Part shown: positions 43,519-54,223 of the stretch, piece by piece
How the letters are laid out: each line of letters starts with the position of its first letter
Numbering within the stretch: position 1 is the first letter of the stretch
Assembly: GCA_024408335.1 (NCBI GenBank)
Contig: JAKSVB010000003.1
Location: 1 to 64,000 of the forward strand
Length of the DNA stretch: 64,000 nt
Source: Bacilli bacterium
Lineage (GTDB): Bacteria; Bacillota_I; Bacilli_A; RFN20; CAG-826
Reading direction: 5' to 3'
Translations under genes and position numbers: made by a program
Notes under the pieces: model-generated
Databases searched by the model: none
Told to the model about the DNA's origin: nothing
Seen by the model: the letters and a program-made list of their open reading frames with translations, nothing else

Positions 43519-44217
43519 ATGGATTTTAGTGGATTAGAGAAGCTTTCGCTTCTAGATTTTGATGACAACATCACGGCAACTCTCTTTATGGCAGGGTGCA
43601 ATATGCGTTGTCCTTTTTGCCATAACTCTTCGTTAGTTATCAATCCTGGACAAGCGCCAAAGATTCCATGGGAAACAATCATGGACTTTTTGAAGAAACG
43701 TCAGAATGTTTTAGATGCAGTGTGCGTTACTGGTGGAGAAGCCACTTTAATGCCGGATTTGTTAGAGAAACTTGGAGAAATCAAGTCTCTTGGATATAAA
43801 GTCAAACTAGACACAAACGGATCAAATCCTGAGATATTAAGAATTGCAGTGGAACAAGGCCTTATTGATTACGTGGCAATGGATATCAAGAACAGCAAAG
43901 CCAAATACTATAAGACAATCGGCACAGAAAACGTCAGCATGGACGCCATTGAAGCGTCGATCGATTATCTTTTGAATAATGACAGGATCGATTACGAATT
44001 TAGAACCACCATCATCGAGGAATTCCATTCAGAAGAGGACATGATGGCTATTGCCTCATGGCTTGGTGGTGCCAAACGTTTCTTTTTACAGCACTACGTA
44101 GACCGCGAAGATTGCATTGAACACGGCTTCCATGATGTACCAAAAGAAAAGGCCCTCCGTTGGAAGGCCATACTTGGTAAGGAAATCCAAGAAGTCAGTA
44201 TCCGTGGATACGATTAA
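43519..44217 (+). CDS. nrdG: Anaerobic ribonucleotide reductase activating protein
   Basis: A 232-aa radical SAM enzyme. The iron-sulfur cluster motif CNMRCPFC (CX3CX2C) near residue 29 is followed by VCVTGGEATL near 70. It forms the glycyl radical on NrdD, encoded nearby on the opposite strand. Starts with no Shine-Dalgarno. Its TAA overlaps the stop codon of the convergent flavoprotein gene. Confidence 0.9.
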   Translation: MDFSGLEKLSLLDFDDNITATLFMAGCNMRCPFCHNSSLVINPGQAPKIPWETIMDFLKKRQNVLDAVCVTGGEATLMPDLLEKLGEIKSLGYKVKLDTNGSNPEILRIAVEQGLIDYVAMDIKNSKAKYYKTIGTENVSMDAIEASIDYLLNNDRIDYEFRTTIIEEFHSEEDMMAIASWLGGAKRFFLQHYVDREDCIEHGFHDVPKEKALRWKAILGKEIQEVSIRGYD

Positions 44218-45140
44218 TCTTTTTGGAATAAATAGTTACTAGCACTTAAGGCAGCGATTGCACCGTCGTTACAAGCGGTTGTGAGCTGTCTTATTTTTTT
44301 GACTCTGCAGTCACCTGCAACAAAGACACCTGGTGTTTTGGTGGCCATGGTCTCGTCGCAAACAAAGAAGCCACGATCTAATTCAACAAGGTTTGCGAAT
44401 CTGTCGTTATCTGGAATCTGGCCAATTGCTACGAATGCGCCCTTGGTTTTAAGTTCCATTGTTTTTCCTTCGTTGGAAGTCCCTTCACGGCCTGCAAATG
44501 AGACGCTTTCAAGTTTCTCGCCATTTCCATTGAAGCTGACTGAGTTCCAGTCGTGATAAATGGTAACGTTTTGCTGTGCTTTTAATGAATCGACAAGAAC
44601 CTTATCGGCGAAGAATTTGTCAAATAGGGTAACGACGTCGACATGCTTTGAGGTCTTAGCTAGTAGAAGGGCGTATTGGAGAGCGCTATTAGCGTCACCG
44701 ATGACCATGGTGTCTTGGCCTGTGTAGAATGCGCCATCGCAAACTGCGCAGTAGCTGACGCCTTTGCCTTTGTAGTGATCCTCACCTTCGATGCCAAGGT
44801 GGCGGTGTTTAACGCCAGTAGCAAGGATGACGGATCTTCCTTTGTGATCGCCATAGGTGCAGTGAGCGACGAAGTCGTCGCCATCTTTTTCGACGGATAA
44901 AACTTCATCGAATTCGGTTTCGACACCTAAATCGACTATTTGGGTGAATAACTTATCTGACCATTCTAAGCCAGAGATTTCTTTGATGGTTGGGAAGTTT
45001 TCGACTCTTGGAGAATCGGCGATTTGTCCGCCGAACGCTTCTTTCTCGATGAGCTTAACACTTCTTCCTGCTCTTAACGAATAAAGGGCCGCGGTCATTG
45101 CCGCGGCGCCTCCACCGATAATTAGAACATCAGGCAGCAT
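44214..45140 (-). CDS. Thioredoxin reductase-like flavoprotein
   Basis: A 308-aa FAD-dependent disulfide reductase. FAD loop LIIGGGAAAMTAALY (residues 6-20), redox-active CAVC (131-134), C-terminal FAD motif GVFVAGDCRVKKIRQL. The nucleotide-binding loop reads VIGDANSALQYA and the following strand VDVVTLFDKFFADK, without the GGGDSA and HRRxxxR motifs that bind NADPH in classical TrxB, so the electron donor may not be NADPH. AAGGA sets the start at 45140, overlapping nrdD by 11 bases. It probably reduces the glutaredoxin-like tail of NrdD. Confidence 0.88.
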   Translation of the reverse strand: MLPDVLIIGGGAAAMTAALYSLRAGRSVKLIEKEAFGGQIADSPRVENFPTIKEISGLEWSDKLFTQIVDLGVETEFDEVLSVEKDGDDFVAHCTYGDHKGRSVILATGVKHRHLGIEGEDHYKGKGVSYCAVCDGAFYTGQDTMVIGDANSALQYALLLAKTSKHVDVVTLFDKFFADKVLVDSLKAQQNVTIYHDWNSVSFNGNGEKLESVSFAGREGTSNEGKTMELKTKGAFVAIGQIPDNDRFANLVELDRGFFVCDETMATKTPGVFVAGDCRVKKIRQLTTACNDGAIAALSASNYLFQKD

Positions 45141-47517
45141 TGCCATCCTTGACCTTTTGGATATAGCCTCTGATGTTTGAAGCGTTATCGTAAACATCAT
45201 AGGAATCACCATTAGGAACTAAGAGTGTTGGAGCATTGGTAATGCCAAATGCATTTGTTGTTTCTTTGTTAGAGACTGCGTCGATTTGTTCGTATTCGAT
45301 GCCTTCTTTATCAAGCATCATCTTTGCCATCTTGCAGTTTGGGCAAGTTGGAGATGTGAAGAGCATGACTTTAGTTACTTTTGGAGCTTCTGCAGCATGT
45401 TCTTCGCAGCATTCGCAGTGTTCTTCATGAGCGTGAGGCATAGCGTTTTCGTCATGGACGTATTCCTTACGATCCTTGAATTCTTGGGTCTTACCTTCGT
45501 TCCAGTTTTTGATTGGACGGTAGTAGCCAGTGATACGTGACCAAACTTCTGCTTCCTTACCACAAACTGGGCAGTTGTGGACTTCGCCAGTGATGTAGCC
45601 GTGATCTGGACAGACAGAATAGGTTGGGGACATGGTGTAGTATGGGAGCTTGTAGTTGACAGCAATCTTACGAACAAGCTTCATGCAGCTTTCCCAGTTT
45701 GGAAGTCTTTGGCCAAGGAATGTGTGGAAGACAGTACCAGATGTGTAGAGGGTTTGGAACTTATCTTCGATATCAAGGGCTGCAAAGATATCGTCTGTGT
45801 ATCCAACTGGAAGGTGTGATGAGTTGGTGTAGTAAGGAGTTGCGCCTTCGCCACCTGCAGTGATGATGTCTGGGTATTTCTTACGGTCGTGCTTAGCAAG
45901 ACGGTATGAGGTACTTTCTGCTGGTGTAGCTTCTAAGTTATAGAGATCGCCATATCTTTCTTGGTAGTCAGAGAGGCGTGTTCTCATGTGGTTAAGAACT
46001 TCGACGGTGAAGTCTTGAGCGTTTTCGTGGGTAAGATCTTGTTTGACCCAACGAGCGTTAAGGCATGCTTCGTTCATACCAACGAGACCGATGGTTGAGA
46101 AGTGGTTGTTGAATCCGCCGAGATAGTGTTTGGTGTATGGGTATAAGCCTGCTTCAAGAAGCTTTGTAACGGTTTTACGCTTGATACTTAATGAACGTGC
46201 AGCGATATCCATCATTTTGTCGAGTCTTGCGTAGAAGTCATTCTTATCTGTTGCTAAGAAAGCAAGACGTGGCATGTTGATGGTGACGACACCGATTGAA
46301 CCGGTGCTTTCGCCTGAACCGAAGTAACCACCTGATTTCTTACGGAGTTCACGGAGGTCAAGACGGAGACGGCAGCACATTGAACGGACATCGCTAGGTT
46401 TCATATCGCTGTTGATGTAGTTGCTGAAGTATGGGGTGCCGTATTTAGCGGTCATTGTGAAGAGAAGTTTGTTGTTCTCGGTCTCATTCCAGTCGAAATC
46501 GCTGGTGATTGAGTATGTTGGGATAGGATATTGGAATCCACGGCCATTAGCGTCACCTTCGATCATGACTTCGATGAAGGCTTTGTTGACCATATCCATT
46601 TCTTTCTTACAATCGCCGTATGTGAATGGCATTTCTTTGCCACCAACAATAGCTGGAAGGTTCTTTAAGTCCTCTGGAACTGTCCAGTCGAGTGTGATGT
46701 TGGTGAATGGAGCTTGAGTACCCCAACGTGATGGGGTATTAACGCCAAAGATGAATGATTGGATACATTGTTTGACTTCTTTGTAGCTTAAGTTGTCGTT
46801 CTTGACGAAAGGAGCAAGGTATGTGTCGAATGATGAGAATGCTTGTGCGCCAGCCCATTCGTTTTGCATGATACCAAGGAAGTTGACCATTTGGTTGCAA
46901 AGTGTTGATAAGTGGCTAGCAGGGGTGCTGGTGATCTTGCCAGTGACGCCGCCTAAACCTTGTTGGATTAATTGTTTGAGTGACCAACCTGCACAGTAGC
47001 CGGTTAACATGCTTAAGTCGTGGAGGTGGATATCAGCATTACGGTGTGCGTCTGCGATTTCCTTGTCATAGACTTGGCTTAACCAATAGTTAGCTGTGAC
47101 AGCACCTGAGTTTGAAAGGATGAGACCGCCAACTGAGTAGGTGACTGTACTATTCTCTTTAACACGCCAGTCTGCGAGTTGAAGATATGAATCAACGACT
47201 TGCGCGTAGTTAAGGTCTGTGGTTTTAAGTTGTCTGATGTTAGCGTGTTTGCTACGGTAATCCATGTAACTGTGTGCAACATCAACATAGCCAGCTTGAA
47301 TTAAAACGATTTCAACGCTGTCTTGGACGTCTTCAATGTTAACGACACCGCTGACGACCTTTTTGTTGAACTCTGCTGTGACACGGAGAGCTAAGATCTC
47401 AATGATTTCCTTTGTGAATTCTTTGTGTTCTGCGACGAATGCTCTTTCAATGGCTCTTTCGATTCTTGATAGATCGAAGTCAACAATGGAGCCATCTCTT
47501 TTTTTGACTTGTAACAT
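45130..47517 (-). CDS. nrdD: Anaerobic ribonucleoside-triphosphate reductase fused to a glutaredoxin-like domain
   Basis: A 795-aa class III reductase making deoxyribonucleotides without oxygen. An N-terminal ATP-cone (residues 1-90) precedes the barrel with CAGWSLKQLI near 186 and CCRLRLDLREL near 380. A zinc site (CPDHGYITGEVHNCPVCG) precedes the glycyl radical loop RITGYY, with Gly at about 664. After a His/Cys-rich linker (HAHEEHCECCEEH) comes a domain of about 80 residues, VMLFTSPTCPNCKMAK, with CPNC at 725-728 and cis-Pro loop NAPTLLV. The fused domain probably supplies electrons in place of formate. Confidence 0.93.
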   Translation of the reverse strand: MLQVKKRDGSIVDFDLSRIERAIERAFVAEHKEFTKEIIEILALRVTAEFNKKVVSGVVNIEDVQDSVEIVLIQAGYVDVAHSYMDYRSKHANIRQLKTTDLNYAQVVDSYLQLADWRVKENSTVTYSVGGLILSNSGAVTANYWLSQVYDKEIADAHRNADIHLHDLSMLTGYCAGWSLKQLIQQGLGGVTGKITSTPASHLSTLCNQMVNFLGIMQNEWAGAQAFSSFDTYLAPFVKNDNLSYKEVKQCIQSFIFGVNTPSRWGTQAPFTNITLDWTVPEDLKNLPAIVGGKEMPFTYGDCKKEMDMVNKAFIEVMIEGDANGRGFQYPIPTYSITSDFDWNETENNKLLFTMTAKYGTPYFSNYINSDMKPSDVRSMCCRLRLDLRELRKKSGGYFGSGESTGSIGVVTINMPRLAFLATDKNDFYARLDKMMDIAARSLSIKRKTVTKLLEAGLYPYTKHYLGGFNNHFSTIGLVGMNEACLNARWVKQDLTHENAQDFTVEVLNHMRTRLSDYQERYGDLYNLEATPAESTSYRLAKHDRKKYPDIITAGGEGATPYYTNSSHLPVGYTDDIFAALDIEDKFQTLYTSGTVFHTFLGQRLPNWESCMKLVRKIAVNYKLPYYTMSPTYSVCPDHGYITGEVHNCPVCGKEAEVWSRITGYYRPIKNWNEGKTQEFKDRKEYVHDENAMPHAHEEHCECCEEHAAEAPKVTKVMLFTSPTCPNCKMAKMMLDKEGIEYEQIDAVSNKETTNAFGITNAPTLLVPNGDSYDVYDNASNIRGYIQKVKDGNAA

Positions 47518-48157
47518 AACTCTACTTCCTTTCCTTATTTATATATGTGTGTGGTAGTTGGAGGGTAAAAAAAGACCAAAATCTTTTCCCCCTGTATCAT
47601 GAAGGGGGAACTATTTCCCTCTTGCACGGATAATATTAATTAAAGATATAGCAATTGCAATCAAAATGCTTAGGAAAAATTTATGAAAATTTCGAAAAAA
47701 ATTTCATGTGGATTTCTCATGTGGAAAACTTGCGATTATATGCCCATTTTTTAGGGCCATATTTTTCGGCGTTTCATGTCAATAGATAAAAATACATTTT
47801 TGGACACTGTATAAGAAGAAACAAAAACAACCGATAAATAGTGCTTTTTGGCAATTTGTAAAAATTTTGCGAACAAAAAATGTCTCGTTTAAAGCTTGAT
47901 TGACAAATCAATAAATTGACTAAATTTTTTTAATGTGGAAAACTCTGTTTTTCTAGTGTGCAATCGGCATTTTTTGGCAAACGCAAATTTATGGATTTAA
48001 GTAACGGAAAACTACTAATTTTTTAGATACAGAAATTGTTCAAAACTGGTTAGAAAAGACACTTTTGACTAAAAAGAGATTGGACATAATTAAAAGTGCC
48101 TTTATTAGAGTCGCTAGATCTAAAAAGAAAACCGCTGAATTTGTATTGGTTCAGCGG
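47518..48157. promoter_or_regulatory. AT-rich nrdD upstream region with hairpin and DnaA-like boxes
   Basis: A gene-free stretch of 640 nt, far more AT-rich than its surroundings. Near nrdD the leader has a CCCCCT/AGGGGG hairpin (47589-47609) and a weaker AAAAGA/TCTTTT hairpin. Further away are three TGTGGA-type sites: TGTGGATTT (47707-47715), TGTGGAAAA (47720-47728) and TGTGGAAAA (47934-47942), each 7-8 of 9 matches to the DnaA box. No convincing NrdR box pair was found. Confidence 0.45.
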
Positions 48158-49045
48158 TTATTGTCTTGTTAGTGAGTTTAGAATGTGCTCAGCGTATAGC
48201 TTTGCTAAATTCTTTCCTGAGATTTTCTCGATTTCGGTTAAGAAGGCGTTTGAATTAACTTCGCATAGGATCGGTTTTCCTTCTGAGGAGGAAAGAAGAT
48301 CGATTCCGCAGTAGTCTAGCTTCATTATCGATGCGGCCTTTTCCGCCATTGCGATATACGAATCAGGCAATTCTGCTTTCTCTCCGTGTCCGCCTAGCGA
48401 TATGTTGCTTCTGAAATCGTTGTCATTAACTCTCTTCATTTGAGCTTCAACCTTGCCGTTTACCAAGATTAGTCTGTAATCAAAACCCTTGCTTGATGCA
48501 ATATATTCCTGGTAGTGGTGGGCAACAAACTTGTGTTCTTTTTCATAAGAAACGAGTTCGTCCCAGTTATTAAGCAATCTAATTCCTTTGCCAAGGCTTC
48601 CATAGTTTTCCTTGGCGATCATAGGGAAAGAAATCTGTTTTACGAGATTTTTTAAGAAACAGTCACTATCTGAACCGATGTAGTTTAATGGAGCGGACAC
48701 TGTGACAGGCATATCGATGCCGTTATTGGCCAATACGATATGCGTAAGCATCTTATCGTCGCATAGACGAATTGCCTCAGAAGTGTTGAAAAGTCTCATT
48801 CCTTGTTTTGTCAAAAGTTCGGCAACATATAGGTCTTTGTCTAAATATAAAACAAAATCATATTTATCTTTAATGGAGTCTAATATGTCGCCTTTTGAGT
48901 CGATATAGGTAAGGATTTCGGCGTTTGTAATCTGTTTTAAGCCAACGCCTAAAGCATTAAGCTCTTCCTTCATTCGATCGTAGAAGTATGCGAAGGAGGC
49001 TGATTGGTTGTAGGCATTAAGAATAGCAAGTCCTGTCATTTTCAT
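48158..49045 (-). CDS. RimK-like ATP-grasp ligase
   Basis: A 295-aa ATP-grasp protein: N-terminal pre-ATP-grasp half, then the nucleotide-binding region FPMIAKENYGSLGKGIRLL near residue 150 with the conserved Lys and Gly-rich loop, and metal ligands in CGIDLLSSSEGKPILCEVNSNAF near 245. Relatives (RimK, LysX, MptN) add amino acids such as glutamate to a carboxylate; the substrate here is unknown. No Shine-Dalgarno; TAAAAT lies seven bases before the ATG. The start codon is inside a palindrome shared with the divergent nadE promoter. Confidence 0.82.
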   Translation of the reverse strand: MKMTGLAILNAYNQSASFAYFYDRMKEELNALGVGLKQITNAEILTYIDSKGDILDSIKDKYDFVLYLDKDLYVAELLTKQGMRLFNTSEAIRLCDDKMLTHIVLANNGIDMPVTVSAPLNYIGSDSDCFLKNLVKQISFPMIAKENYGSLGKGIRLLNNWDELVSYEKEHKFVAHHYQEYIASSKGFDYRLILVNGKVEAQMKRVNDNDFRSNISLGGHGEKAELPDSYIAMAEKAASIMKLDYCGIDLLSSSEGKPILCEVNSNAFLTEIEKISGKNLAKLYAEHILNSLTRQ

Positions 49046-49049
49046 GACA
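49034..49049. promoter_or_regulatory. Operator candidate 1, TGTCAT-N4-ATGACA, over the ligase start
   Basis: TGTCAT-TTTC-ATGACA is an exact 6+4+6 palindrome. It contains the ATG (49045-49043, minus) of the ATP-grasp gene and its expected transcription start. The same 12 bases recur at 49095-49110. Confidence 0.65.
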
Positions 49050-49052
49050 ACA

Positions 49053-49106
49053 ATTTTAAGACTAACTGAAAAATCTTCAACACATTACATAAAATGTCAT
49101 TATAAT
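49053..49106. promoter_or_regulatory. Back-to-back promoters of the ATP-grasp gene and nadE
   Basis: Minus strand: TTGAAG (49080-49075), 16-nt spacer, TAAAAT (49058-49053). Plus strand: TCAACA (49077-49082), 18-nt spacer, TATAAT (49101-49106). The two -35 elements overlap. Confidence 0.6.
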
Positions 49107-49110
49107 GACA
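49095..49110. promoter_or_regulatory. Operator candidate 2, TGTCATTATAATGACA, over the nadE -10
   Basis: A perfect 16-bp palindrome that contains the TATAAT -10 box of nadE. It overlaps a second inverted repeat, ACATT-N6-AATGT (49082-49097). Its half-sites are identical to those of the palindrome 61 bp away. Confidence 0.7.
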
Positions 49111-49124
49111 ATGAGGAAAATATT

Positions 49125-51227
49125 ATGAATGACATCAAACCAATTACATTATTAAGGAATACAGAGAAACTTAAACAAGAATTAGAAGAGAATGGCGGCA
49201 GGATTTTTATAACCAAAAATGGCCAAAAAGATTTTGTTGTTTTAAGCGATGAAGAGTTTCAAAAACTAAGCAAAAACGATATTAAATCGAAAAACGACAT
49301 AGTTTTTAAGCAATCTGACCCTCTTGGATTTGTCAAAGTTTCTTCGCAATCAATACAAGTTGAGGTTGCTGGCGTGTCCCATAATGTTGAAGAGATAAAA
49401 AGAGCAATCAAAGAAGCAAATGATGATGATGTCAAAATCCTTGTTTTGCCAGAATTATGTCTAACTGGCTATACTTGCGGAGATTTGATTCTTCACGACG
49501 AGCTCTTGGATAAAGCAGAAAATGCCATCAACGATTTGAAGATGTTCTCCAAAAACTACAGCTTATTCTTCGTTGTAGGTGCTCCTTTAAGAAAAGATGG
49601 TAAGTTATTCAACTGTGCTGTTGCAATTTGCAAAGGTGCTATCCTTGGCGTTGTTCCTAAAACATTCATTCCAAACTACGCGGAATTCTATGAGATGCGT
49701 TATTACTCAAGCGCACCAGAAGAAAATAGCGCGATCCACATTTGTGGCGAATCGGTGCCTTTTGGCGTTAAACAGATCTTCGTTGATGAAGATTATAGAA
49801 AACTCAAGATTGCAATCGAAATATGCGAAGACGCATGGGCTGTTGAAACGCCTTCTAGCAAAGCGGCTTTGGCTGGAGCTAATGTCATCTTGAACTTAAG
49901 CGCATCGAACGAAATCGTTGGTAAGGCATCATATCGTCTTAACCTCGTTAAGATGAACTCCTCTAGATTAAAAGCGGCTTATGTTTATGCCGATGCAGGA
50001 GATGGAGAAAGCACAACCGATTTAGTGTTTGGTGGCCACAATATCATCGCCGAAAATGGCAAAATCCTATGCGAAACCCCATTATTCTCAATGAAGAAGG
50101 CTGTTTCTGAGATCGATCTAGACGTCTTGCTAAACGAAAGAAGAAGAAACACATCCTTCGAACATAAATACTGTGAAGAGTTCAAATTCATTAGATTCTC
50201 TATGCCTTTAGAGAGACCTTCATCATTAACAAGAGTGTACAAAACAAACCCTTTCATTCCGTCGACAAAGAATACCGACCTCACAAGAGTCCAATCCATT
50301 TTGGATATTCAATCAATGGGATTGGTAAAACGTCTAAAAACAACTAGACAGAATAAAGTCATATTAGGCCTATCTGGCGGGCTTGATTCAACTCTTGCCC
50401 TTTTAGTCTGCGTTGAGGCATTCAAAAAGCTTTCATATGATCCAAAAAACATCTTATGTATAACAATGCCTGCTTTCGGAACCAGTAAGAGAACATACGA
50501 AAACGCCCTTCTTTTATCCAAGGAAACAGGCGTAAGTCTTAGAGAAATCAACATTGGAGCCAGCGTTCTCCAACATTTCAAAGATATTGGACATGATCCA
50601 AATGTCACAAACATCGCATATGAAAACTCACAAGCCCGTGAAAGAACTCAAGTCTTAATGGACTTAGCAAACGATGAGAACGCTTTGATGATTGGCACCG
50701 GTGATTTAAGTGAAATCTGCCTTGGATGGTGCACATATAATGGCGATCATATGTCAAATTACGGTGTTAATGGATCAATTCCAAAGACACTAGTTAGATA
50801 TTTGGTTGAGGGATACGCAATCATGCACCCAGAAACAAGAAAGTCTCTTCTTGGCATTATTGAGACACCTATCAGCCCTGAACTTTTACCACCTGATCAC
50901 AAAGGTGAGATTGCTCAAAAGACAGAATCGGTCGTTGGACCATACGAAGTCCATGATTTCTATATCTATCATTATTTGAGACACGGCTTCACTCCAAGAA
51001 AGCTTCATTTCATTGCAAACGAGGCATACAAAGGCAAATATAGCAGTGAAGAGCTCAAGAAGTACCTAGGGATCCTCTTCAACAGATTCTTTAAGAGCCA
51101 GTTCAAGAGAAGTTGCATGCCTGATGGCGCTAAAGTTGGTACTGTTGCAGTTTCGCCTAGAGGAGACTGGAGAATGCCTAGCGATGCCTCTAGCGAAGAA
51201 TACATGAAAGAGATCGAATCTTTATAA
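49125..51227 (+). CDS. nadE: Glutamine-dependent NAD synthetase with N-terminal Phd/YefM antitoxin-like domain
   Basis: A 700-aa protein. Residues 1-50 (IKPITLLRNTEKLKQELEE, IFITKNGQKDFVVLSDEEF) read as a Phd/YefM-type antitoxin fold, which binds operator DNA. After a linker, the NadE glutaminase domain starts near 68 with the Glu-Lys-Cys triad at E110 (VLPELCLTGY), K179 (VVPKTFIPNY) and C234 (EICEDAW). The ammonia-dependent synthetase domain has the ATP loop SGGLDS at 417-422 and GTGDLSEICLGWCTY near 550. It converts nicotinate adenine dinucleotide to NAD. The ATG at 49125 is set by GAGGAA. No toxin gene is nearby. The extra domain probably binds the palindromes upstream. Confidence 0.92.
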   Translation: MNDIKPITLLRNTEKLKQELEENGGRIFITKNGQKDFVVLSDEEFQKLSKNDIKSKNDIVFKQSDPLGFVKVSSQSIQVEVAGVSHNVEEIKRAIKEANDDDVKILVLPELCLTGYTCGDLILHDELLDKAENAINDLKMFSKNYSLFFVVGAPLRKDGKLFNCAVAICKGAILGVVPKTFIPNYAEFYEMRYYSSAPEENSAIHICGESVPFGVKQIFVDEDYRKLKIAIEICEDAWAVETPSSKAALAGANVILNLSASNEIVGKASYRLNLVKMNSSRLKAAYVYADAGDGESTTDLVFGGHNIIAENGKILCETPLFSMKKAVSEIDLDVLLNERRRNTSFEHKYCEEFKFIRFSMPLERPSSLTRVYKTNPFIPSTKNTDLTRVQSILDIQSMGLVKRLKTTRQNKVILGLSGGLDSTLALLVCVEAFKKLSYDPKNILCITMPAFGTSKRTYENALLLSKETGVSLREINIGASVLQHFKDIGHDPNVTNIAYENSQARERTQVLMDLANDENALMIGTGDLSEICLGWCTYNGDHMSNYGVNGSIPKTLVRYLVEGYAIMHPETRKSLLGIIETPISPELLPPDHKGEIAQKTESVVGPYEVHDFYIYHYLRHGFTPRKLHFIANEAYKGKYSSEELKKYLGILFNRFFKSQFKRSCMPDGAKVGTVAVSPRGDWRMPSDASSEEYMKEIESL

Positions 51228-51240
51228 GAAGGAGCGGAAT

Positions 51241-52401
51241 ATGAGAATTGGAATTATCGGAAGCGGCCCAAGTGGACTATACTTATCAATCTTTTTGAAG
51301 ATCAAACACCAAGATTTTGATGTCGTTGTCTTTGACAAAGAACAAAAACTCGGAAAGAAGCTCTACGCGACAGGAAACGGAAGATGCAACCTTCTAAACA
51401 AAAACTTAAGTGGGAAAGCCTATAACCACGAAAGGCAAATGAACAGCTTACTCAAATCCTATCCATATGAATACTTGGATAAGGTGTTGAAGAGTATAGG
51501 CGTCCAAACAACCGAAATAGGGGATTATGTATACCCTCTTACTATGAGCGCTCCAGCATACACGCAATACTTAATAAAACTTGCAGAACGTGTAGGCGTA
51601 AAGTTTGTTTCGGAAACCAAAATAGTTGGTTATGAGCAAAAACAAAACCAATACGTTTTAAGATGCGAAGGAGGCAAAGAGCAACTTGTCGATAAAGTTG
51701 TCATCGCATGCGGTGGTTGCAGCAGTCCTAAGCTTGGAAGCGATGGATCTTTCTTCAAGGAAATCAAGAGACATGGCTATAAAGTTATTGAACCTAGGCC
51801 TGGTTTAACACCTTTGGTTCTTGCTGATAGAGACATAAAAGACCTTTCAGGAATCCGTCATGACGCAAAAGTTGAAGCCTATGTTGACGAGAAGAAGATT
51901 TTCGAAGAAGTAGGCGAAGTGTTATATAAAAACGATGGAATATCCGGAATCGTTATTTTCAATGCAGAAAGCGCTATTTACCGTTTAGATAGCTTTGCGA
52001 ACGCTGAACTCGTTGTCGATCTATTCCCAGAGCGTTCTGAAAAGGAACTTGAAGACATGCTGTTGCATGATGAATCTATTAACCATGATTTCTATCTTGA
52101 TTCATATCTTCTCCCAGCCCTCCAAAAGCATGTTTTAGGACGTGCCAAAAGGAAAGACGCTTATAGCTTAGCAAAGGCGATGAAACACTTAAAATATACA
52201 GTCAAAAACCATTATGGTTTCGACTCTTCACAAGTCACAATCGGCGGAGTTGCCCTTGAGGAACTTTCAGGAAATCTGGAATCCACAAAAGAAAAAGGCG
52301 TCTTCTTTGTCGGGGAAGTCGTGGACATCGATGGCAACTGCGGCGGATATAACCTTACTTGGGACTTAATATCAGCAATGCTTGTTTATCAGGCACTTTA
52401 G
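51241..52401 (+). CDS. HI0933-like flavoprotein (NAD(P)/FAD-dependent oxidoreductase)
   Basis: A 386-aa FAD-binding protein of the HI0933/YhiN group: N-terminal dinucleotide loop IGIIGSGPSGLYLSIFL, the family hallmark GKKLYATGNGRCNLLN near residue 38, VIACGGCSSPKLGSDG near 155, and C-terminal KGVFFVGEVVDIDGNCGGYNL near 352. The physiological substrate of the family is not settled. AAGGAG lies 13 nt after the nadE stop, so it is co-transcribed with nadE. Confidence 0.88.
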   Translation: MRIGIIGSGPSGLYLSIFLKIKHQDFDVVVFDKEQKLGKKLYATGNGRCNLLNKNLSGKAYNHERQMNSLLKSYPYEYLDKVLKSIGVQTTEIGDYVYPLTMSAPAYTQYLIKLAERVGVKFVSETKIVGYEQKQNQYVLRCEGGKEQLVDKVVIACGGCSSPKLGSDGSFFKEIKRHGYKVIEPRPGLTPLVLADRDIKDLSGIRHDAKVEAYVDEKKIFEEVGEVLYKNDGISGIVIFNAESAIYRLDSFANAELVVDLFPERSEKELEDMLLHDESINHDFYLDSYLLPALQKHVLGRAKRKDAYSLAKAMKHLKYTVKNHYGFDSSQVTIGGVALEELSGNLESTKEKGVFFVGEVVDIDGNCGGYNLTWDLISAMLVYQAL

Positions 52402-52413
52402 AGCGAAAACCCA

Positions 52414-52436
52414 TGCAAAAACCGCATATTTTTGCA
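52414..52436 (+). repeat. Hairpin after the flavoprotein gene
   Basis: TGCAAAAA (52414-52421) pairs with TTTTTGCA (52429-52436). The flanking block AAACCC.TGCAAA..CCG.ATATTTT is shared with the region after uvrB. It may act as a weak terminator. Confidence 0.5.
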
Positions 52437-52488
52437 GAATGCTCTTTTGTAAAAACAAAAAGAATTTTATAAAAAACTCGTTTCTAGA

Positions 52489-52517
52489 TTGACTATCTTT
52501 TTAAGATAGATTTTAAT
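52489..52517 (+). promoter_or_regulatory. Promoter with palindromic spacer, membrane protein gene
   Basis: TTGACT (52489-52494), 17-nt spacer, TTTAAT (52512-52517). The perfect inverted repeat CTATCTT-TTT-AAGATAG (52493-52509) lies in the spacer. Downstream, GCTAGG (52527-52532) and CCTAGC (52554-52559) can form a leader stem just before the Shine-Dalgarno. Confidence 0.6.
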
Positions 52518-52574
52518 AAGTAGGTTGCTAGGCATCATTCGTTTTTGAAGACCCCTAGCGAGCGAGGTTGTTTT

Positions 52575-53516
52575 ATGAAATATGCAAACACATCAAGATC
52601 ATTGAGCTTCTTAGCACATTTGCTCCTTGTTCTTCTCTTTGGATTCCTCGGAATCTACTTCGGCTGCTTAGTCACTCCATTCTTCTTTGTCGCAGCAGTT
52701 GACCCAATCGTTCCTGTTATTGAAGGTGCATACCTCCTTTACTTGGAATTATCTGTTCTTGGCTGGAGCTTAGCTATTCTTAGCGCAATCGGCCTTTGGA
52801 ACGCTGTCAAAGCTTTAAAGAATCCACGTGATGATGAACCAGTCGTCAAATCATTCACCCTTCTCATCAGCGAAGGATGGATTGCTAGCTTATTCTTCCT
52901 TCTCCAAGCTTGCTTATTCTTCGATTTAACTGGCAGAAACAGCGCAGCTGATAACAGAGTCTTCGTTATCATCGCTAGCTTGCTCATCACCATCGGCCTT
53001 CTCATCGCTACAAACATCCCAATGGTTAAGCTTTACGATGGCAAAGATCAAAAGCCTCTCGTCCGTAGCTTCGTTGGCGCTGGCCTTGTTGTTACTGGTG
53101 CAACATTTGTTGAATCAGCAATAACTTTAGTTGGTCTTCTTTCAAACCAAACCATGACCCCATCACTCCGTGAAAAGTTCATGTGGCTCCTTATCGCTAT
53201 CGTTGTTCCAAGCTTCATCGCAGCACTTCTTCTTTGCTTAGGATACTTCGTCTTCTTCAAGAAGAATGCCAAACTCGTTTCATTACTTGCTGGCTTTGCA
53301 TTTGCCGCAATCGCTCTTGGCTTAGTTGCCTTTGGCGTTCTCAACATTGTTTGGTACGAAAGCAACGTTGCACTTAACGCTATCGGCAAAGACAGTGCAT
53401 TCGCATTCAAACCATACGGCTATGGCTTCGCAGTTATGAACTTCGTCGTCGCTGCATTCACCTGTGCATTAAGCGTCATTCTTATGTCAACAGGCCTTAG
53501 CAAAAAAGCTAAGTAA
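52575..53516 (+). CDS. Hypothetical polytopic membrane protein
   Basis: A 313-aa protein with about eight membrane helices in pairs separated by short polar loops; no motif that I recognise. The ATG at 52575 follows GCGAGG and was chosen over an upstream in-frame ATG. Strong C-ending codon bias, a good promoter and a strong terminator suggest abundant expression as a single gene. Confidence 0.65.
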   Translation: MKYANTSRSLSFLAHLLLVLLFGFLGIYFGCLVTPFFFVAAVDPIVPVIEGAYLLYLELSVLGWSLAILSAIGLWNAVKALKNPRDDEPVVKSFTLLISEGWIASLFFLLQACLFFDLTGRNSAADNRVFVIIASLLITIGLLIATNIPMVKLYDGKDQKPLVRSFVGAGLVVTGATFVESAITLVGLLSNQTMTPSLREKFMWLLIAIVVPSFIAALLLCLGYFVFFKKNAKLVSLLAGFAFAAIALGLVAFGVLNIVWYESNVALNAIGKDSAFAFKPYGYGFAVMNFVVAAFTCALSVILMSTGLSKKAK

Positions 53517-53533
53517 TCAATCCCAAAAATTAT

Positions 53534-53557
53534 AACCGCTCGAAAGGGCGGTTTTTT
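53534..53557 (+). terminator. Intrinsic terminator
   Basis: AACCGCTC-GAAA-GGGCGGTT (one G-U pair) followed by a T-run, 17 nt after the membrane protein gene. Confidence 0.9.
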
Positions 53558-53591
53558 CTTTGCTTTTTCCTTTATTAATATTATGATTGTC

Positions 53592-53635
53592 GCAACGTGT
53601 TGCTCCTCTTGCTCCACGTATAAAAAACAGGGAGG
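53592..53635 (+). promoter_or_regulatory. preQ1-I-type riboswitch
   Basis: Stem ACGTG/CACGT (53595-53599, 53615-53619) encloses a pyrimidine-rich loop and is followed by the diagnostic tail ATAAAAAACA and then GGGAGG, the queT Shine-Dalgarno. Loop CTCC can pair with GGAG to form the H-type pseudoknot, hiding the ribosome site when preQ1 is bound. An alternative hairpin GCAAC/GTTGC (53592-53603) competes with the first stem. The downstream gene is a queuosine-precursor transporter. Confidence 0.8.
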
Positions 53636-53644
53636 CCCTAGTAT

Positions 53645-54223
53645 ATGGCTAAAAACAATACCGCCAGTCAAGAGACTGGAAAAACCAAGAAATCACTACG
53701 CGATTTATTAACAGTTCGCGTTATTGCCGAAAACAGCATCTTAGCAGCGATTTATGTCGTTCTTGTTTTAGTTGTGCCGTTTTTGTCATTCGGTCCGGTT
53801 CAATGTCGTTTTAGTGAAGCTCTTGTATTGCTTTGCTTCTGGAGACCGGACTTCACAATTGGATTGTCGGTAGGTTGCCTAATTTCCAACGTAGTTGGAG
53901 CGGCAATAGGATCAGCTTCGCCATTCGATATTCTTATTGGCACAGCTGCTACCACATTATCCTGCTTATTAATTTCATACTTCTCAAAGCGTTTATTAAT
54001 CGCCGTCGTTTGGCCAGTTATCTTTAACGCTGTAATCGTTGGTGCAGAACTTTATTTCTTAGGATTCGCTGGCGATCTTTCAATCTGGTTCAGCATCCTT
54101 TATGTTGTCATTGGCGAAGCAATTGCCGTTGGCGTCGGTTACCTCATTTGGATGGGGCTTTCGCACATGGCGTTTTTCCAAAAAGTGTTCCAACCAACCG
54201 CTCATATTGGCATTAAGTGGTAA
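53645..54223 (+). CDS. queT: Queuosine precursor ECF transporter S component QueT
   Basis: A 192-aa membrane protein with six helices. Family segments SFGPVQCRFSEALVLLCFW near residue 47 and GLSVGCLISNVVGA near 73 match QueT, the S component importing preQ1 or related bases through an ECF transporter. A hydrophilic N-terminus of 20 residues precedes the first helix. The upstream preQ1 riboswitch and downstream tgt support the function. Confidence 0.9.
   Translation: MAKNNTASQETGKTKKSLRDLLTVRVIAENSILAAIYVVLVLVVPFLSFGPVQCRFSEALVLLCFWRPDFTIGLSVGCLISNVVGAAIGSASPFDILIGTAATTLSCLLISYFSKRLLIAVVWPVIFNAVIVGAELYFLGFAGDLSIWFSILYVVIGEAIAVGVGYLIWMGLSHMAFFQKVFQPTAHIGIKW

Follow-up and report, generated by a model that had tools for sequence, protein, structure and literature searches.

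A NAD synthetase with an N-terminal Phd/YefM-type domain and operator-like boxes at its own promoter: a predicted self-regulating enzyme in Bacilli

Introduction

The nadE gene analysed here encodes a glutamine-dependent NAD synthetase whose N-terminal domain is, by its modelled fold, a Phd/YefM antitoxin domain, and its promoter carries a pair of TGWCA boxes that accompanies this domain across the genus. By computation, we establish the identity of the domain, the box array, the co-occurrence of the two, and the presence of related arrays in front of free-standing antitoxin genes. Given that NadE carries the DNA-binding half of an antitoxin and that a matching operator precedes its gene, it most likely switches its own gene off. 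We therefore regard it as highly probable that NadE is a self-regulating enzyme that represses nadE through its Phd/YefM domain on the TGWCA boxes, with binding and repression predicted from sequence. The gene lies in a 64,000-bp stretch of Bacilli bacterium contig JAKSVB010000003.1, referred to below as the window; its features are collected in Table 1.

Table 1. Features of the nadE/ATP-grasp region (window coordinates)
Feature	Position	Strand	Remarks
RimK-like ATP-grasp ligase gene	48158..49045	-	Divergent to nadE; apparently leaderless
Second box pair	49034..49049		TGTCA 49034-49038 and TGACA 49045-49049, over the ATP-grasp start; this species only
ATP-grasp -10-like TAAAAT	49053..49058	-	Consensus match; -35-like TTGAAG at 49075-49080
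Third inverted repeat ACATT-N6-AATGT	49082..49097		Unconserved
nadE operator (predicted)	49095..49110		TGTCA 49095-49099 and TGACA 49106-49110, 11 bp apart; conserved in fused nadE promoters of the genus, family and order
nadE -10 TATAAT	49101..49106	+	Consensus match; sits within the operator
nadE fusion gene, 700 aa	49125..51227	+	Phd/YefM-like, glutaminase (CN_hydrolase) and NAD synthetase domains
Phd/YefM-like DNA-binding domain, residues 1-51	49125..49277	+	Fold match; separate module in the full model; below Pfam and NCBIfam cut-offs

Results

Two identical dyads occur between nadE and the ATP-grasp gene

The dyads TGTCATTTTCATGACA (49034-49049) and TGTCATTATAATGACA (49095-49110) are each 16 bp long, with perfect 6-bp arms and no outward extension. 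The first-pass annotation had described them as identical palindromes with centres 61 bp apart, one over the start of the minus-strand ATP-grasp gene and the other over the TATAAT at 49101-49106, and both descriptions are borne out. The only two exact copies of TGTCAT-N4-ATGACA in the 1,350,666-bp genome are these, against 0.13 expected from base composition. For the looser form TGWCA-N6-TGWCA, composition predicts 0.0004 sites per 92 bp, while two are present between the nadE and ATP-grasp starts. The -35 elements of the two promoters had also been said to overlap between the dyads; the hexamers TCAACA (plus strand, from 49077) and TTGAAG (minus strand, from 49080) do so, although both are weak consensus matches. 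The third inverted repeat noted there, ACATT-N6-AATGT, is present but is not kept in relatives, and is probably incidental. An Rfam scan of 48850-49300 returned no RNA family match up to E 1.

The conserved unit is a TGWCA box that accompanies the fused domain

The 12-base palindrome itself did not withstand comparison as a conserved unit, as aligned relatives keep TGWCA or TGTACA-like boxes instead. Among the 15 exact pairs of the genus, the TGTCA...TGACA orientation is seen in two (L010 and L021; by eye), and the centre base of a box differs in close relatives; the nearest relatives have TGACA-N6-TGACA or TGACA-N6-TGTCA at the nadE site. What is conserved upstream of fused nadE is the 5-bp palindrome TGWCA, which recurs at intervals of 11 or 22 bp over the -10 region. 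Thus the YefM-type layout, with two short palindromes about one helical turn apart over the -10, is present with a spacing of 11 or 22 bp. In the 22-bp form, a degenerate middle box (TGGTA or TGCTA) overlaps TGnTATAAT and doubles as an extended -10, and hence part of the conservation belongs to the promoter. In the window's clade, the pair is kept though the -10 is not of the extended type.

For counting, loci with identical upstream DNA were removed (57 fused loci reduced to 46), and start codons were chosen throughout by script. An exact TGWCA pair at 11 or 22 bp is found in 15 of 26 distinct Phd/YefM-fused promoters of the genus (shuffle mean 0.01), rising to 24 of 26 when up to one mismatch is allowed (shuffle mean 0.45); the spacing rule was set after viewing the genus alignment, and related sequences are not independent. 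In contrast, no such pair is found in any of 82 promoters of nadE genes that lack the domain. Four of the 82 belong to the window's genus (L074-L077) and further ones to its family, so that loss of the domain is accompanied by loss of the boxes. The non-fused set includes two XRE fusions (L120 and L174), whereas L036 was counted as fused; L073 and L147 were left out, having no nadE ORF under the script rule, and the upstream region of L073 shows no TGWCA by eye.

Under the strict TGWCA rule, 20 promoters of sister genera yield no exact pair and three with one mismatch, because their boxes resemble TGTACA or ATGTA: TGTACA occurs in several promoters of sister genera and families, and TGWCA in the window's genus. 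A 27-column matrix trained on family 1 was applied to fused promoters of three other families and, at p<0.01, detects the array in 14 of 15, compared with 2 of 81 non-fused promoters; the held-out promoters were not used in training, but had been inspected before the matrix was run. The suggestion that the fused antitoxin-like domain is the likely reader of the nadE site is supported: throughout the genus and order the site goes together with the domain, nadE promoters without the domain lack it, and in related form it also precedes free-standing Phd/YefM antitoxins.

The N-terminal domain of NadE has a Phd/YefM fold

The N-terminal domain scores 21.5 bits against Pfam PF02604 when the first 92 residues are scanned (cut-off 29.8) and 18.6 bits against TIGR01552 of NCBIfam (cut-off 20.8), thereby missing both curated cut-offs. 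Models of the domain alone (mean pLDDT 61.8) and of the full-length protein both give the element order beta-alpha-alpha-beta-beta-alpha. In a PDB fold search the top 37 matches are all antitoxins, mostly named Phd or YefM and several of them DNA-bound, the best having E 0.017 and probability 1.00. On these models, the domain is Phd/YefM by fold. Residues R11, K31, N32 and G33 are invariant (alignment A4); R10 and R31 of YefM are described as essential for DNA binding (PMC4803016), and by our reading R11 and K31 of NadE would be their counterparts.

The C-terminal part of Phd is described as the toxin-binding one (PMC4803016). In sequence and model, no such toxin-neutralising segment is seen in NadE, given that residues 52-60, a low-confidence linker after the module in the full-length model, are predicted to be disordered and that the stretch from there to the enzyme is poorly conserved among 17 aligned proteins. 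On reading the ORFs at 44000-54000, no toxin-like gene was found.

The enzyme part scores 802.6 bits against NF002730 (cut-off 473), which makes it an equivalog-level glutamine-dependent NadE. Its best match is the M. tuberculosis enzyme 3dla (E 2.3e-128, residues 67-697), with which it shares the glutaminase plus synthetase architecture; in contrast to 3dla, however, the present protein has a DNA-binding domain before the match, and since the match begins at residue 67 this domain is an addition. The M. tuberculosis NadE is described as octameric (PMC6946656; PMC7196632), and by homology an octameric assembly would be expected here.

The fusion occurs in four families of the order

Among 37 genomes of the genus, 27 encode the full-length fusion and two a domain-bearing fragment (G005 and G026), while five have nadE without the domain (G021, G025, G028, G029 and G031) and three could not be assigned (G007, G013 and G019). 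Fused-length frames are found in four families of the order (279 genomes). In 395 genomes drawn from the class, there are four matches outside the order, all of them antitoxin-sized frames of 95-103 aa.

Several variants were noted among these proteins. Four NadE without the Phd domain (L074-L077, from G028, G029, G031 and G021, respectively) are shortened to 553-565 aa with a diverged N-terminal half, and their genes are still divergent to the ATP-grasp gene. Three Phd-fused NadE (L011, L038 and L112) lack a residue aligned to Cys234 of the glutaminase domain (alignment A1), which we take to be the nitrilase-family nucleophile, and have also lost the nearby YxEFYE loop; this suggests that they may be ammonia-dependent enzymes. 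In G144 (L092 and L095), a long linker with many His, Pro, Arg and Met residues joins the Phd domain to the enzyme.

NadE has also been joined to DNA-binding domains of another type. L120 (G059:C52) has an N-terminal XRE-type domain in place of Phd/YefM (HTH_3, E 6.2e-11), and 2 bp upstream of a TATAAT stands the palindrome ACCCATTGGGT; L174 (JAFTKX010000021.1, from a Clostridia genome) has an N-terminal XRE-type domain as well (HTH_26, E 5.8e-7). These cases suggest convergence, NadE having apparently gained unrelated XRE domains in at least two other lineages; they are suggestive only, because the G059 form is the sole fusion-length match among the 279 genomes and its palindrome is short. 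About 1.6 kb from its Phd-fused nadE, G148 also encodes a separate XRE protein (G148:C50:13033-13191, L251), which shares 51% identity with the XRE portion of the G059 fusion.

Related arrays precede free-standing antitoxin genes

Of 14 promoters of free-standing Phd/YefM antitoxins from the same bacterial family, a set that includes near-duplicates, the family-1 nadE matrix detects an array at p<0.01 in eight; the other six fall short of this threshold. In the clearest case, L081 (genome G160), TGGCATAATTATGCTATAATTTTGTCA precedes an antitoxin gene whose reading frame overlaps that of a ParE-type toxin (Pfam E 1.9e-11), and this operator is nearly identical to the nadE array. The L081 antitoxin is closer to the fused domains (31 of 47 residues shared with L107) than to the other free antitoxins tested. 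Given these related arrays and the operators of the YefM type, the domain and operator look like one captured module. The best explanation, on sequence grounds, would be that nadE acquired both the operator and the DNA-binding domain of an antitoxin, and that NadE represses its own promoter; the two may have been captured together, or the operator may have been fitted later. Among the free-standing antitoxins L078-L091, ATGATA boxes at an 11-bp repeat often stand in front, and several of the genes are followed by RelE/ParE-like genes.

The ATP-grasp side and further targets

The first-pass annotation had envisaged a repressor controlling both divergent genes. This is supported on the nadE side, but on the ATP-grasp side the dyad at 49034 was detected in this species alone: at that position its nearest relatives have GTCTTTAACATCTCA or similar, and lack the dyad. 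Control of both genes is thus not general, as no other usable locus of the genus has a box pair at the ATP-grasp start, and co-regulation as a general rule was rejected on the same grounds. Loci L020, L025, L037, L094 and L096-L098 were unusable here, their ATP-grasp start not being placed by the script, and a 22-bp pair with one mismatch at L095 is not firm, since the start chosen there is doubtful. The nadE array is kept in L018 and L022, which have no ATP-grasp gene upstream, and in many loci of other genera that likewise have none. Within this species, we put the chances that the 49034 pair is a real second operator at about even. Beyond the ATP-grasp gene, a minus-strand gene at 45130-47517 encodes a 795-aa protein that reads as an anaerobic ribonucleotide reductase with a glutaredoxin-like tail (CPNC), and overlaps, by reading, a thioredoxin-reductase-like gene.

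Across the 37 genomes of the genus, the 22-bp form with up to three mismatches matches 18 sites, of which 17 lie immediately upstream of nadE, against none for its reversed control. In the window's own genome, there are six TGWCA-N6-TGWCA sites versus 6.2 expected from composition (reversed control, one), and the four outside the nadE/ATP-grasp region all lie within ORFs; the 22-bp form occurs once, versus twice in its control. Seven one-mismatch dyads are present in the genome: L003, L006, L007, L008 and L009 inside ORFs, L005 in a coding stretch read as secE-like, and L004 in an intergenic stretch, away from any evident start. No genome-wide regulon was accordingly found, as neither spacing form is in excess elsewhere and no one-mismatch dyad stands at an evident gene start.

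Discussion

We propose that residues 1-51 of NadE would read the TGWCA boxes (TGTACA-like in sister genera), which span the -10 at intervals of one or two helical turns, and that the bound enzyme would block RNA polymerase and lower nadE transcription. Since the boxes straddle the -10, repression would be by occlusion, as at the L palindrome of yefM-yoeB, which is described as covering the -10 box (PMC7730913). The enzyme body, if octameric as expected, could bring several Phd/YefM dimers to neighbouring boxes, and may thereby supply the multivalency that the toxin supplies in YefM-YoeB; in Phd-Doc, the toxin bridges antitoxin dimers (PMC4803016). In this species, the second box pair could let NadE act on the ATP-grasp gene too.

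Other readings of the same observations are all improbable by comparison. Possible cross-binding by the free-standing Phd/YefM antitoxins of the family, which have related operators of their own, raises the possibility that a separate regulator, be it such an antitoxin or some other repressor, reads the array while the fused domain is otherwise employed. Against this, the array accompanies the domain encoded by the same gene and is missing from nadE without it, and a search of the window's own genome (P0003, G000) finds a single match, the fusion itself, and no separate relative; we consider this reading unlikely. The Phd/YefM membership of the fused domain and the related antitoxin-toxin operons of the same bacterial family could also mean that this domain is a working antitoxin that neutralises a toxin, with the boxes a remnant of the promoter that came with it. 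However, NadE has just the N-terminal DNA-binding part, the toxin-binding C-terminal part not being seen, no toxin-like gene is recognised among the neighbouring ORFs, and the conservation of the boxes across four families argues against a leftover, which makes this account very improbable.

The motif could also be promoter and start-codon sequence only, that is, an extended -10 plus chance repeats: the middle box of the 22-bp form overlaps TGnTATAAT, and the ATGACA arm of the 49034 dyad is also the Met-Thr start of the ATP-grasp gene. Nevertheless, the outer boxes lie outside the -10, their spacing of 11 or 22 bp is kept, they are missing from non-fused nadE promoters, and the pair persists in the window's clade without an extended -10; we give this explanation very little credence. 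Repression of nadE by NadE through its own Phd/YefM domain hence remains the reading that we favour.

The operators of YefM-YoeB and Axe-Txe are described as pairs of palindromes that overlie the promoter, their TGTACA cores spaced by 12 bp (PMC7730913). The present system resembles them in its Phd/YefM-type fold, in its paired short palindromes about one turn apart over the -10, and in the TGTACA cores found in sister genera; it differs in that there is no toxin and the domain is fused to an NAD synthetase, and in that the boxes of this genus are 5-bp TGWCA at 11 or 22 bp. NadR of Salmonella and E. coli, an enzyme of NAD metabolism that is also an NAD-dependent repressor (PMC7221760; PMC7196632), has the dual role of enzyme and transcription repressor that is predicted here for NadE. 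NadR, however, is another enzyme and represses several NAD genes (nadB, nadA-pnuC and pncB), whereas NadE, the final enzyme of NAD synthesis, appears to target its own gene via an antitoxin domain. More broadly, BirA, NadR, PepA, PutA and PyrH are listed as trigger enzymes of E. coli (PMC8249747), metabolic enzymes that act as transcription factors on few targets, a role that NadE is predicted to share; as far as the list in that source goes, NadE is not on it and none of its members is credited there with a Phd/YefM domain. In the open-access literature on NadE or NAD synthetase and on YefM/Phd fusions, we found no report of such a NadE, although such a search does not prove absence.

A further-reaching proposal, to which we give somewhat less than an even chance, is that an essential metabolic enzyme acquired an antitoxin together with its operator, as one unit, early in the order. 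The octamer would then serve as a multivalent co-repressor in place of the toxin, so that the abundance or ligand state of NadE, instead of the toxin:antitoxin ratio, would set promoter occupancy, and conditional cooperativity would have become metabolic feedback.

If true, the fusion would exemplify how a toxin-antitoxin module can turn into housekeeping feedback, in which the DNA-binding half and the operator survive and the toxin is gone. The last enzyme of NAD synthesis would have become its own repressor, giving these little-studied bacteria an NAD control circuit distinct from NadR, NrtR and NiaR.
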